Origin: Trinickia soli
GTDB taxonomy: Bacteria; Pseudomonadota; Gammaproteobacteria; Burkholderiales; Burkholderiaceae
DNA length: 64,000 bases
Direction of reading: 5' to 3'
Assembly (NCBI RefSeq): GCF_002879855.1
Contig: NZ_PNYB01000003.1
Span: forward strand, 124,001 to 188,000
Below the pieces are notes generated by a model. It saw nothing but the letters and a program-made list of their open reading frames with translations. It was not told the DNA's origin and did not search any database. Made by a program: the position numbers and the translations under genes. Every line of letters starts with the position of its first letter. Within the stretch, counting starts at the first letter, position 1. Of the stretch, positions 35,382 to 41,906 are shown one piece after another.

Positions 35382-35450
35382 AGTTCGCGCCTTCTTGCTC
35401 GTCTCGATGAAGCGACGAACGGACAGGCAGCGAGGACTGCCGGAGAGGAT

Positions 35451-35520
35451 CCACTTTTCACACCAGCGACCGCGACTCCCCTCTCCCCAACCCACCCAAA
35501 ACCCTGTAGAAACGCGCTCT
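35451..35520 (+). repeat. Copy of the tRNA-Gly upstream flank, tRNA missing
   Basis: This 70-base stretch, from CCACTTTTCACACCAGCG to AAAACCCTGTAGAAACGCGC, is a close copy of the sequence just before the intact tRNA-Gly (41760-41831). Most positions agree, including the -10-like TAGAA. Exactly where the tRNA should start, the sequence switches to an IS3-type coding fragment. It marks the left edge of the island. Confidence 0.75.
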
Positions 35521-35521
35521 C

Positions 35522-35645
35522 AATCCCTACGCGCCGGAATTTCGGGCACAGATGGTCGAGTTAGTGAAAGCCGGTCGCTCGCCAGAAGAGCTTGCGCGCG
35601 AGTTCGAGCCAACAGCGCAAACGATCTACAACTGGGTCGCACCGT
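35522..35645 (+). pseudogene. IS3-family OrfA transposase fragment
   Basis: Reading frame starting AATCCCTAC encodes NPYAPEFRAQMVELVKAG, then RSPEELAREF and TIYNWVAP. This is the helix-turn-helix beginning of IS3-family OrfA proteins. It is cut at both sides: the start is fused to the tRNA-flank copy and the end runs into the STM2901 fragment at GGGTCGCACCG. No inverted repeats or OrfB are left. Confidence 0.8.
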
Positions 35646-35748
35646 CCCGATCATCGGGGAAGTCATCCTCGCCTACGACGTGTCGATCATCAGCTACCGC
35701 AGCGCCGTTCATTACAACCAACTCGTGAAGCCCGAGGACCGACTATGA
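35631..35748 (+). pseudogene. Truncated STM2901 family gene, 3' end only
   Basis: The last 38 or so codons (GRTVPIIGEVILAYDVSII to KPEDRL) match the C-terminus of the intact STM2901-type protein encoded at 39512-39943 (GRTLPGVGWVLLANDVAQI to SPEDRVF). The 5' two thirds are replaced by the IS3 fragment. Its stop overlaps the DUF1493 start as ATGA, the same coupling seen in the intact pair. Confidence 0.8.
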
Positions 35749-36104
35749 GCAATTCTCTGCTGCTCGAAGAAGTCGAATCGTTCGTGCGTAAGGAGCGCGG
35801 CTTGTCCCAGAGCAAGGTCGTCACGACGGCCACGACGCTTGAAGACGACCTCGGTATCACAGGCATCGAGGGTGAGATGTTCATGGAAGCCTTCTTTGCC
35901 CGCTTCAAGGTCGACGAAGGCGATTTCGCGTCGGGGCGCTACTTCGTGGACGAGGGGTCCGGCCTTCTTCTCATGCTCGTCACAGCCCTGTCGCGAAAGC
36001 GGCGAAAGGCGCTCGATCGCATTCCTATCACGGTCGGCATGCTCGTCACAGCTGCCAGCCTTGGTAAATGGGATTCCGCCAAGGTCGAGAACAGTCGTTG
36101 GTGA
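35745..36104 (+). CDS. DUF1493 family protein (acyl-carrier-like fold), copy 1
   Basis: A 119-residue DUF1493 protein. It shows LLEEVESFVRKERGLS at the start, LEDDLGITGIEGEMFMEAFF in the middle and ITVGMLVTAASLGKWD at the end. The middle block resembles the acyl carrier protein helix II region (DLGxDSL) but has Gly where the phosphopantetheine serine would be, so it should not carry the prosthetic group. GAGGA precedes the ATG. It is a paralogue of the gene at 39943-40290; its STM2901 partner is truncated here. Function unknown. Confidence 0.82.
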   Translation: MSNSLLLEEVESFVRKERGLSQSKVVTTATTLEDDLGITGIEGEMFMEAFFARFKVDEGDFASGRYFVDEGSGLLLMLVTALSRKRRKALDRIPITVGMLVTAASLGKWDSAKVENSRW

Positions 36105-36839: not shown

Positions 36840-37014
36840 CAAAGACGGCTCGGACCACGGGAGCGGCGGCTTCTACGCCCCCCTTAATCGGTGGTTCGCC
36901 ATTAAGCCTAGCGAAGCCACCGCCCCCACCAGCGAGCCATACCAGTTTCGCTACCACCGGCCAAACTCTTGCGCTTGCCATCCGCACCGGAACCCCTGTA
37001 AAATTGTGCGTTCT

Positions 37015-37054
37015 GCGGGCGTCGTATAATGGCTATTACCCTAGCTTCCCAAGC
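37015..37054 (+). pseudogene. Truncated tRNA-Gly(CCC), 5' half
   Basis: Forty bases identical to the first 40 of the intact tRNA at 41832, from the acceptor 5' strand GCGGGCG through the anticodon loop TTCCCAA. The next bases (CCCTACGCG) are unrelated to a tRNA. About 25 bases of promoter sequence (CCTGTAAAATTGTGCGTTCT) are also shared. The break in the anticodon stem-loop is a classic integrase crossover position, so this looks like an attachment-site remnant. It cannot give a tRNA. Confidence 0.9.
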
Positions 37055-37398
37055 CCCTACGCGTTAAGCAACACCACTATTCACGCGCGTTCTCACTTCA
37101 GGTTTTCTCCCATCTCCTCGTAGATCCACTGTCCATGCGGGTTTCGCGGCGATGCCAGTTTTCACGCCTGCGTGGATATCAAGAAGCTAACGGTATAGCG
37201 CTGCGAACTTCACCAGATCACCGGCCGTATCGAAACAAAAACATGCCCCGCCCCATCTCATCAACTCGCTAATTCAGTTCAATCCCAAGAAATTGCGAGC
37301 CACGGGCGGCAACTTGGCGAGGTCGATCCTGAGCCCTTCCCGATACCCCGGACCCATCACATTCAGCGATGCGAGGCATTGGGCTTGGCCTTGGTATC
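37055..37398. other. Non-coding/degraded stretch between the tRNA fragment and mrr-like gene
   Basis: A 344-base stretch without an intact gene. It begins CCCTACGCG right after the tRNA break, a 9-base match to the junction at 35525-35533 where the IS3 fragment meets the other tRNA flank. Its right part holds a degraded reading frame (37274-37396, minus strand). The promoter of the restriction gene should lie near its right end. Confidence 0.5.
37274..37396 (-). pseudogene. Possible 3' end of an unrecognised gene
   Basis: The minus strand has a 41-codon frame bounded by stops that reads like real protein: ASLNVMGPGYREGLRIDL, then AKLPPVARNFLGLN and stop. I do not recognise the family. It may be the tail of a mobile-element gene whose front was lost at integration. 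It runs opposite to the restriction gene and lies in its upstream region. Confidence 0.35.
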
Positions 37399-38367
37399 AT
37401 GATTGAAGCCAACACGAAGCCAAGCGCTATGCCCATTCCAGACTATCAATCCCTCATGCTGCCGGTCCTTCGCATGGCAGCAGACGGACAGGAACATCGG
37501 TTTCGGGACATGATTGAAACCCTCGCCGACCAACTCCAGTTGACCGACGAGGAGCGCAATGCCCTTCTCCCGAGCGGTACCACCCCCGTCTTCAACAATC
37601 GCGTTGGCTGGGCTCGCACATACTTGAAGCAAGCTGGTCTACTCGAGATCAAGCGGCGCGGATACTCCAATATCACGCCGCGAGGCCAAGCGTTGCTCGC
37701 AGAGAACCCGGCGAAGATCGACGTAGCTATGCTCAATCGGTTTCCTGAATTCGTGGCCTTCCGCCAAAGACGAGAAGATGATTCAGGTTCGACTCAAACC
37801 TCCTCCTCACCAGCGGAGGCTGCCTCGATCAATGCCGACGTGACGCCAGAGGAACTGTTTGCCCTGTCATACCAACGACTGCAATCCAACCTTGAAGGCG
37901 AGTTGCTCGATCAAATCAAACGTTCAACACCCGCCTTCTTCGAACAGTTGGTCATCGATTTGCTGGTAGCAATGGGCTACGGCGGATCCCGTCAAGATGC
38001 TGGGAGCGTAATCGGTCGCAGCGGGGACGAAGGTATCGACGGCACCATCAAGGAGGACAAGCTTGGCTTGGACGTGATTTACGTCCAAGCCAAACGATGG
38101 GGAAACACCGTCGTTGGTCGTCCGGAAATTCAAAAATTCGCCGGTGCGTTGCAGGGCCAGCGCGCGAACAAGGGAATATTCATTACCACGTCGTCGTTTT
38201 CTCGCGACGCCCGGGAATATACGAGCAACATCGCGGCGAAAATCATTCTCGTCGACGGCGATCAACTTGTGAAGCTCCTGGTCGAACATGACGTTGGTGT
38301 TTCGACCGCCAGCACCTACAAGATCAAGAAGATCGATTCGGATTACTTCGAAGGTGACTCGCTCTAA
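37399..38367 (+). CDS. mrr: Mrr-type restriction endonuclease
   Basis: About 322 residues (312 if the ATG at 37429 is used, giving MPIPDYQSLMLPVLRMAADG as in other Mrr proteins). The N-terminal winged helix (about 12-100) is the DNA-recognition part, with NNRVGWARTYLKQAGLLE. The C-terminal Mrr_cat nuclease (about 180-290) shows FFEQLVIDLLVAMGYGG, GDEGIDG and the PD-(D/E)XK-like IYVQAKRW. Mrr enzymes cut methylated foreign DNA without a partner methylase, so this is a type IV-like defence gene. It is the first gene after the truncated tRNA. Confidence 0.9.
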   Translation: MIEANTKPSAMPIPDYQSLMLPVLRMAADGQEHRFRDMIETLADQLQLTDEERNALLPSGTTPVFNNRVGWARTYLKQAGLLEIKRRGYSNITPRGQALLAENPAKIDVAMLNRFPEFVAFRQRREDDSGSTQTSSSPAEAASINADVTPEELFALSYQRLQSNLEGELLDQIKRSTPAFFEQLVIDLLVAMGYGGSRQDAGSVIGRSGDEGIDGTIKEDKLGLDVIYVQAKRWGNTVVGRPEIQKFAGALQGQRANKGIFITTSSFSRDAREYTSNIAAKIILVDGDQLVKLLVEHDVGVSTASTYKIKKIDSDYFEGDSL

Positions 38368-39511: not shown

Positions 39512-39943
39512 ATGAACAACACGTATAGCTACGGATCTCACAAAGATCTGGAGCCAACCGAGCTTTTCGTATTCATCGCTGTTGAGCAGACCTGCGAGCA
39601 GCTCGGGATCGACGACGTGGAATACGTCATCTTGATTTTTTCCGGTCTGCCGATTTTGCCAACGCGCGCCAAGCCATTAGGAGCAACGAAGGGCACGTCT
39701 ATCGCCTCCGTTATGTCTCGTTCGCTGTTCCGCTACGAGCTAAAAAAGAAGGTCTTGCCGACCTTCACGCTGAACAGCATAAAGCGGCTTCGTTGGATTT
39801 TGACTCACAAGCTCAGCACGTTTGTCGGTCGAACGCTGCCGGGCGTCGGGTGGGTTCTCTTGGCAAACGATGTTGCCCAGATCGGGTATCACACCGTCAT
39901 TCAATACAACCGCATCGTTTCGCCCGAGGATAGGGTGTTCTAA
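39512..39943 (+). CDS. STM2901 family protein
   Basis: A 143-residue protein of the STM2901 family, named after a Salmonella gene of unknown function. Family blocks are DLEPTELFVFIAVEQTCEQLGIDD, SGLPILPTRAKPLGATKGTSIASV and the C-terminal FVGRTLPGVGWVLLANDVAQI. The last is a glycine-rich hydrophobic stretch that may insert in a membrane. GAGGG precedes the ATG. The stop overlaps the DUF1493 start (TAATG), so the two products are probably made together and may interact. Confidence 0.78.
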   Translation: MNNTYSYGSHKDLEPTELFVFIAVEQTCEQLGIDDVEYVILIFSGLPILPTRAKPLGATKGTSIASVMSRSLFRYELKKKVLPTFTLNSIKRLRWILTHKLSTFVGRTLPGVGWVLLANDVAQIGYHTVIQYNRIVSPEDRVF

Positions 39944-40290
39944 TGGCAAGCCATACCTGGGAAGACCTCGAATCGTTTGTCAGAAAGGAAGCGTGCGTAT
40001 CACCGAAGAAGGCCATAACACCCGAATCGACAATCGAAATGGATTTGGGGCAACAGGGCGACGATGCTGACGAATTCATGCAGCACTTCTTTGAAGTGTT
40101 TGGCGTGGACAGGGGCGATTATGATTTTCATCGCTACTTCCTGATGGAGGGCGAAGGAATTCTCTATCATCTGCTAATGAAGCTGATGAGAAAGCCACAC
40201 ACTTTTAAGCGAGAGGCTCTGACCATCGGGATGCTTCATCGTGCGCTAGTCGACGGGAAATGGGACTCGAATGCTATTCGCTTGAAATAA
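39943..40290 (+). CDS. DUF1493 family protein (acyl-carrier-like fold), copy 2
   Basis: A 115-residue paralogue of the protein encoded at 35745-36104. Shared blocks are WEDLESFVRKEACVS, the DLG-containing helix region (STIEMDLGQQGDDADEFMQH) and LTIGMLHRALVDGKWD. The residue at the acyl-carrier serine position is again not Ser, so carrier function in the usual sense is unlikely. It is translationally coupled to the STM2901 gene and followed after 77 bases by the unknown 437-residue protein gene. Confidence 0.82.
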   Translation: MASHTWEDLESFVRKEACVSPKKAITPESTIEMDLGQQGDDADEFMQHFFEVFGVDRGDYDFHRYFLMEGEGILYHLLMKLMRKPHTFKREALTIGMLHRALVDGKWDSNAIRLK

Positions 40291-40367: not shown

Positions 40368-41681
40368 ATGGTTCTCGCCCGCATCTTCTGGATTTCTTCG
40401 ATGTCTGACGGTTCCGAACGAACAGCATCCCCAAAATTCTCTGAGCAGCTCCTCGTGCAGGAGGTCTGCTCAGCTTCAAATGCACTGGAAGCGCAGCGCC
40501 GGTTCGAGATGAACGCGACCGCTTTGAAAGACTGGCAGATCCTCTTTGCGGAGGAGAGCGATGCCGGATCCATCAAGCTGCTGAATCGGACGCTAGGCCC
40601 CTCCGGCGTTGCGACGTCTGTATTCCGAGGGAAATCGCTATGGTTGATAGACGCTCCATTTGTCGTGCAATCTGGGCCAATGAGCTTTCGCGGCGGCTCG
40701 GCTGTGTTCCTAGACTCCAATGCGGCTTCCTATATTCGTAAAATCGCCTACCAAGGCGATCCGCCGCCGGGACTGCTGAGTTGGGCCAACTTAATCAATC
40801 AAATCGGAACACGGCTGCAACAGCTTAATCCCTACCTCTATCTGTGGGAGTCCTTACGCTGTTGGAACGACGAGACGGTCGCCAGATGCAAAGAGGCAGT
40901 GGCAGCGATCCATGCGCTGGCGTCGTCCGGCAGTAAGCTGACTGCGGAATGGGGCAGACGGTTCCGCACGACATTCCGTGAAAGTGCGGAGAACTTTGCC
41001 AACGGCTTGATTGTGGAATTCGAACAGAATCTGAAGGCTGGACTTTTCGCCGGCATGGAGGATCAGCTCAACTTGATCGAGGCCGTGCTCGTCCGGAGCC
41101 AGATCATCGAACTCGGGTCCAATAGGGCTAAGGAGCATAAGCTAGCGCAGTTGGTCGCCTACATGCACGAAGAACTGTCTACGATCATGCTCCGGGAACT
41201 GATCGTCTGCGGCGACATTTTGCTTCGGAGCAGCGGATCTCGAATTTCTAAGAAGCTCAACTCAATCCAGAACCACCCCGCCCCCCTGACGCTAATTAGA
41301 AACTGCGCATGGGACATGTACATTCCTCGCGCCCTCGATGCTTTAACTTCAGTCACCCCCGACCACGCTCCACACGTGGACTTCTATGTGGCGGAAGTAC
41401 TAACCTTCGACGGCGACGTATTGGACATTATCAATACCACGAAGTTGAGAGCGATCGCCGTGCATCGGCCGTCAAAGAAAACCTTCCCATTCTTCGACAG
41501 CGACGTGGCCGAGTGGTTGGGCAACCGCCTCGGGCCGAAGCGCATGCCCGCACTGATGGAATACTTCTCGACGCAAGCATTCGTCGATCGAGCGCGGCGC
41601 CGACCCTTGATTTCCATCGGTTCCATTCTTGAAGCGAACCGCGAAGAACTAATGCGTATGATCGGCCGAAGAAAGCACTGA
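40368..41681 (+). CDS. Unrecognised 437-residue protein, PIN-nuclease-like motifs
   Basis: No family is recognised. A central helical part (about 130-290) is flanked by segments resembling a PIN-like nuclease core. These are a hydrophobic strand with Asp-Ser-Asn (SAVFLDSNAASYI, about 110-122), RNCAWDMYIPRALDAL (about 306-321), and DFYVAEVLTFDGDVLDII (about 336-353). The D...WD...D.D spacing is like toxin or defence PIN-like proteins. No signal peptide or clear membrane segment. Starts at 40368 or 40401 (MSDGSER) are both possible; neither has a strong ribosome-binding site. It lies between the STM2901-DUF1493 pair and the tRNA, so a defence role is a reasonable guess. Confidence 0.65.
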   Translation: MVLARIFWISSMSDGSERTASPKFSEQLLVQEVCSASNALEAQRRFEMNATALKDWQILFAEESDAGSIKLLNRTLGPSGVATSVFRGKSLWLIDAPFVVQSGPMSFRGGSAVFLDSNAASYIRKIAYQGDPPPGLLSWANLINQIGTRLQQLNPYLYLWESLRCWNDETVARCKEAVAAIHALASSGSKLTAEWGRRFRTTFRESAENFANGLIVEFEQNLKAGLFAGMEDQLNLIEAVLVRSQIIELGSNRAKEHKLAQLVAYMHEELSTIMLRELIVCGDILLRSSGSRISKKLNSIQNHPAPLTLIRNCAWDMYIPRALDALTSVTPDHAPHVDFYVAEVLTFDGDVLDIINTTKLRAIAVHRPSKKTFPFFDSDVAEWLGNRLGPKRMPALMEYFSTQAFVDRARRRPLISIGSILEANREELMRMIGRRKH

Positions 41682-41831
41682 ACCCGAAAGCGTGCGTCTA
41701 CGTTGGCTCGCCAGCTGCACTTTTTCCACGCGCTGCCAGCAAGGACTTCCGGGGTGGCGCCACTTTTCACGCCAGCGTCCGCGAACCCCTACTCCCCAAA
41801 CCGCTCAAAACCCTGTAGAATCGTGTGCTCT

Positions 41832-41906
41832 GCGGGCGTCGTATAATGGCTATTACCCTAGCTTCCCAAGCTAGAGACGTGGGTTCGATTCCCATCGCCC
41901 GCTCCA
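41832..41906 (+). tRNA. tRNA-Gly(CCC)
   Basis: A complete cloverleaf with encoded CCA. The acceptor stem is GCGGGCG/CGCCCGC (41832-41838 with 41896-41902). The anticodon stem-loop CTAGC-TTCCCAA-GCTAG carries anticodon CCC, and the T arm is GTGGG-TTCGATT-CCCAT. It decodes GGG glycine codons. The first 40 bases are repeated at 37015-37054, and its upstream flank (41760-41831) at 35451-35520. It is the right border of the island and the only intact copy. Confidence 0.97.

Follow-up and report, generated by a model that had tools for sequence, protein, structure and literature searches.

The PIN fold is a parallel alpha/beta/alpha sheet with strand order 3-2-1-4-5, and PIN toxins of the VapC type usually act on tRNA. 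DS-3, an E. coli defence system from the DefensePredictor study, consists of one protein in which the PIN domain is split between the N and C terminus and which has no antitoxin; a catalytic mutation abolishes defence, and its authors suggest that the protein inhibits itself (PMC13092281). DS-5 likewise uses a PIN nuclease in phage defence, with two proteins that are both required (PMC13092281). The minimal RNase P HARP (PIN_5) is a PIN metallonuclease made of one chain, to which a helical (spike-helix) domain has been added; the aspartates D7, D138, D142 and D161 are all essential (PMC8266387).

Here we analyse a gene in a 64,000-nucleotide stretch of the Trinickia soli genome (hereafter, the window), for which a preliminary description had reported an open reading frame of 437 residues belonging to no known family. 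The reading frame was found exactly as described, at 40368-41681 on the forward strand. Because the burkholderial relatives begin at its residue 12, we prefer as the start the ATG at 40401, the 12th codon, which yields a protein of 426 amino acids; residue numbers are counted from this codon throughout. The ORF is real and under purifying selection, with dN of 0.12-0.19 and dS of 0.8-2.0 against close relatives (dN/dS about 0.14, range 0.10-0.15). The absence of a known family was also borne out: searches of Pfam, NCBIfam, PADLOC, PHROGs and PDB sequences gave the protein no match, and the best result of a PDB profile search was a chance match (E = 0.17).

By description, DS-3 is the nearest published example to this protein. 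Compared on that basis only, the two are alike in being encoded by a single gene, in having PIN-type acids split along the chain and in lacking a linked antitoxin, and we propose that the T. soli protein may work as DS-3 does. The likeness to DS-5 would be a PIN nuclease in defence, but DS-5 is a two-protein system and the present one a one-gene system. HARP provides a precedent for a PIN metallonuclease of one chain that has been elaborated by helices; it is, however, a smaller, oligomeric enzyme of pre-tRNA processing, and our family matches no PDB chain by sequence. With VapC (PF01850), the protein appears to share a D-x-N that ends the first strand, a glutamate some 40-45 residues later, an aspartate in a helix and a T-x-D/N after a strand, whereas VapC has about 130 amino acids and a VapB partner and the T. 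soli protein has 426 amino acids and no linked partner.

The residues behind these comparisons were drawn from an alignment of eight sequences (A5) that spans the distance between Burkholderiales and a Streptococcus phage and in which divergent groups share about 15-23% identity. Besides the first methionine, just 11 of its columns are invariant (D105, L148, E150, L173, L259, E266, A303, D305, R310, D337 and L417), and 5 of these 11 are acidic (D105, E150, E266, D305 and D337), as compared with the 12.7% expected from composition (binomial P = 0.008). The preliminary description had read the motifs FLDSN, N..WD (NCAWD) and TFDGD as those of a PIN-like nuclease. All three are present, their aspartates (D105, D305 and D337) are invariant down to 17-20% identity, and this reading of the motifs is upheld because remote homologues conserve the same acids. 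In most members D105 is followed by x-N, and the chain after D337 looks like a helix and then a strand, the topology that we infer being that of the C-terminal part of PIN domains.

In order and placement, D105, E150, D305 and D337 match the active-site acids of PIN domains (an aspartate in strand 1, a glutamate in a helix, an aspartate in a later helix and an aspartate or asparagine after strand 4), and VapC-type proteins encoded in the T. soli genome and in related ones have their acids in the same order. E266 equals the other four in invariance, but a PIN site offers it no obvious canonical position. The first two acids lie 45 residues apart, as compared with about 40 in one VapC-type protein of T. 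soli, and the last two are 32 residues apart, wider than in VapC (about 19). Between the glutamate and the third acid, 155 residues intervene, versus about 58 in one VapC-type protein of the same genome. This corresponds to the split-PIN layout proposed in the preliminary description, in which two halves of the domain would be separated by a long, mostly helical insert (Table 1).

Table 1. Features of the window around the PIN-like gene, with residues numbered from the ATG at 40401.
Feature	Position	Strand	Basis
64-bp direct repeat with truncated tRNA-Gly(ccc) 5' half, left border	36991-37054	+	92% identical to 41808-41871
Mrr type IV restriction endonuclease, island cargo outside the PIN-like unit	37369-38367	+	Pfam 5e-36; PADLOC mREase_IV 3e-97
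STM2901-family ORF, island cargo	39512-39943	+	NCBIfam E = 3e-51
DUF1493 ORF, island cargo, 1-bp overlap with the STM2901 ORF	39943-40290	+	profile match
PIN-like protein CDS, likely true start	40401-41681	+	homologue starts; dN/dS 0.10-0.15 in comparisons with close homologues
D105 (FLDSN), putative metal-binding Asp, first of the acids, ends a hydrophobic strand	40713-40715	+	invariant in alignments A3 and A5
E150 (YLYLWE), putative second acid, 45 residues past D105	40848-40850	+	invariant
Presumed, mostly helical segment between the putative PIN halves, residues ~159-288, limits approximate	40875-41265	+	low-confidence secondary structure, two models
E266, further invariant acid within the inserted helical part	41196-41198	+	A5
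D305 (RNCAWD), putative third acid, predicted helix	41313-41315	+	invariant
R310, invariant, shortly after D305	41328-41330	+	A5
D337 (TFDGD), putative fourth acid, after a strand/hydrophobic stretch	41409-41411	+	invariant
Matching repeat overlapping the intact tRNA, right border	41808-41871	+	repeat comparison
tRNA-Gly(ccc), intact	41832-41906		

Structure prediction and fold search, which had been put forward as a check of the PIN reading, gave AlphaFold2 models too poor to read (pLDDT 38 and 40, from alignments of 6 and 7 sequences that left out the more diverse plasmid and E. coli relatives), and Foldseek searches with these unreadable, low-pLDDT models returned nothing at E <= 0.7. When PIN models were compared with every member tested, none matched at E < 1, PF01850 included. 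Aligned by hhalign over its full length with 16 VapC-type proteins, the family scored 18.4, as compared with 11.6 +/- 1.8 for column-shuffled VapC (0/100 shuffles reached the score); with the core only, the score was 17.9 against 10.6 +/- 2.0 (1/200). Among decoys made of real proteins, an unrelated protein reached 17.1, and the likeness to VapC detected in this way is only suggestive. The PIN reading thus stands in part: conservation in the family is highest at the three acidic motifs, but the PIN models of Pfam are unmatched and the hhalign score lies just above those of real-protein decoys. We consider that the protein is probably a PIN-like nuclease.

About a dozen relatives of the protein were found. 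The closest (71-78% identity) come from Paraburkholderia, Burkholderia sp., Achromobacter and one further burkholderial species, followed by those on two chromosomes of E. coli and one plasmid of Klebsiella (39%), on a Legionella plasmid (about 22%), on Enterobacter and Pantoea plasmids and one viral contig (17-20%) and in a Streptococcus phage (about 19%). Homology of the Streptococcus phage protein is secure, because a profile built without it recovers it at E = 4.6e-16, as compared with E = 9.8 for the best of 2000 shuffles. The gene is sporadic, mobile and moving horizontally: it is present in 2 of 399 burkholderial species, T. soli counted, and in none of 10 further species of its genus. 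In a DNA search, the E. coli members were found in only 2 of 5426 complete genomes, the difference that we note from DS-3. Profile searches across the phylum and class of the window added no full member and one weak match containing stops, and a degenerate DNA pattern for AWDxFHxR, run on viral contigs, hit 16 loci, among which the known phage was the sole relative. A copy on a Klebsiella grimontii plasmid (L009, 5992-6495) retains only about 150 residues of the family and is directly followed by an IS26 transposase gene.

Between burkholderial loci, DNA homology around the gene does not extend beyond 40382-41695, which is the ORF flanked by about 19 bp upstream and 14 bp downstream. Because this homology ends at the gene edges, the gene is a one-gene unit, or cassette. 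Comparison of the neighbour genes across clades revealed none that is shared or conserved, and together with the limits of the homology this means that there is no conserved linked antitoxin gene or upstream RNA; an adjacent gene for a VapB-type antitoxin was not found either. Two candidate partners were rejected. The STM2901-DUF1493 pair that precedes the gene in the window has no relative beside the homologues examined, and the retron reverse transcriptase found near two of the relatives belongs to a retron with its own NDT effector, other loci having no reverse transcriptase.

In the window, the gene lies in a genomic island, which is confirmed by a GC dip (about 0.55 versus 0.64) and a 64-bp tRNA repeat; the gene occupies the end of the low-GC stretch. 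Between the repeats are Mrr, small ORFs on the opposite strand, the STM2901-DUF1493 pair and the PIN-like gene. The setting that had been described, next to the pair, an intact tRNA and Mrr, is accurate except that Mrr lies about 2 kb off, not directly beside the gene. Island border repeats are usually the 3' end of a tRNA. Here, the repeat comprises 24 bp of upstream sequence and the tRNA-Gly(ccc) 5' half, as far as the anticodon loop, and the element seems to bring a new tRNA 5' half and promoter. The same truncated tRNA copy also precedes the gene at three Paraburkholderia/Burkholderia loci (L001, 3555-3611; L002, 1561-1617; L003, 3554-3618), and in L003 an intact tRNA-Gly(ccc) lies downstream of the gene as well. 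The cargo of L001 and L003 is a type II-A retron (NDT and RT), where the window has Mrr and the STM2901-DUF1493 pair.

Beyond the left repeat, another 145 bp or so are common to the window and L001. A 78% copy of the 103 bp directly upstream of the tRNA (41728-41830) is found at 35419-35521, apparently cut by a transposase-like remnant; this is perhaps an older island border and, if so, tandem insertions would perhaps have occurred at tRNA-Gly. A second DUF1493 ORF is present at 35592-36104, and an STM2901 partner was not seen beside it.

By raw count, 7 of the 11 distinct contexts have defence genes close to the PIN-like gene. The gene is directly followed by avs3a/avs3b in E. coli and by avs3a in Klebsiella. 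The type II-A retron lies upstream of it in L001 and in the near-identical counterpart L003, GajA of Gabija downstream in L004, a PD-Lambda-2_B-like protein near it in L006, and PD-Lambda-1 with a ShosA-like gene nearby in L015. In the Streptococcus phage, a gene with an Mrr catalytic domain occurs two genes upstream. Among the genes scanned at L002, L008, L009 and L010 there was no clear PADLOC-named defence neighbour, and L008 contains an AbiEi-like gene. The defence-island position claimed at the outset holds, given Mrr in the window and the raw count of 7/11, and the profile search for homologues and their neighbours suggested along with it yielded relatives from Burkholderiales to a Streptococcus phage, mostly amid defence genes. 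We regard it as very likely that this is a defence gene.

Two of these neighbourhoods have features of their own. The E. coli gene (L012 and L013) resides in an Asn-tRNA integrase island, and the annotation of L013 divides the avs3a region into two ORFs. In the Streptococcus phage (L020, 3887-7176; L018, 1179-4414), a gene for a 358-aa PHROG 15273 protein, with an RHMIGH motif that is HEPN-like by eye, follows the Mrr-catalytic gene and is in turn followed, stop to start, by the PIN-like gene; the three are possibly a defence operon.

Several other explanations can be weighed against this evidence. A stand-alone defence protein might bind metal through the same acids in a non-PIN nuclease or phosphoesterase fold, with perhaps DNA as its substrate; such a fold would accommodate invariant acids in a strong defence context that are yet unmatched by PIN models, as well as E266, an extra invariant acid. 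The order of the motifs is nevertheless typical of PIN domains (a strand with D-x-N and a helix, E about 45 residues on, a helix with A-W-D, then a strand with T-x-D, a helix and a strand), and the HMM-HMM score to VapC exceeds that of shuffles, so that we judge another fold unlikely.

VapC toxins being PIN domains, the protein could also be the toxin of a toxin-antitoxin pair, its antitoxin either unlinked or encoded in a divergent or upstream neighbour. Candidates for such a neighbour exist, as the Legionella gene and a DUF6088 (AbiEi-like) gene are divergently oriented and a MazE-like gene lies upstream in E. coli and Klebsiella. But the MazE-like gene is paired with its own MazF, the clades have no neighbour in common, burkholderial similarity ends 19 bp before the start codon, and VapC is only a third as large as this protein, all of which makes a paired toxin quite improbable. 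The position of the gene, directly upstream of avs3a in some genomes, downstream of a retron in others and upstream of gajA elsewhere, could instead reflect an accessory or regulatory, non-enzymatic component that accompanies several unrelated defence systems. No component is common to these partners, however, L002 and L010 carry the gene but none of the partners, and the invariant set of acids suggests catalysis; we give this explanation very little credence.

We lean, if only slightly, towards a stand-alone, self-inhibited, metal-dependent PIN-like RNase acting by abortive infection, where we infer the fold, the RNA target, the self-inhibition and the abortive outcome alike. According to this model, the active site would consist of D105, E150, D305 and D337, joined from two halves of the chain around the helical insert, and the nuclease would be kept inactive, and infection sensed, by the N-terminal part (about residues 1-95), by the insert or by the two together. 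Infection by a phage would release the nuclease, which would then cut RNA, and growth would stop before the phage matures. More tentatively, and at somewhat less than an even chance, the proteins may form a family that is new and self-contained, made up of split PIN-like nucleases for defence, unrelated in sequence to DS-3 and with a sensing domain of its own, carried in Proteobacteria and Firmicutes by tRNA-linked islands, plasmids and phages.

Through this analysis, an ORF that had been anonymous becomes a member of a defined family, absent from Pfam, NCBIfam, PADLOC-DB 2.0 and PHROGs, with a putative active site that can be tested and a likely class of function. A one-gene PIN effector without an antitoxin would raise the question of how a lethal nuclease stays silent until infection, and the members of this family, from E. 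coli to a Streptococcus phage, provide material for asking it.
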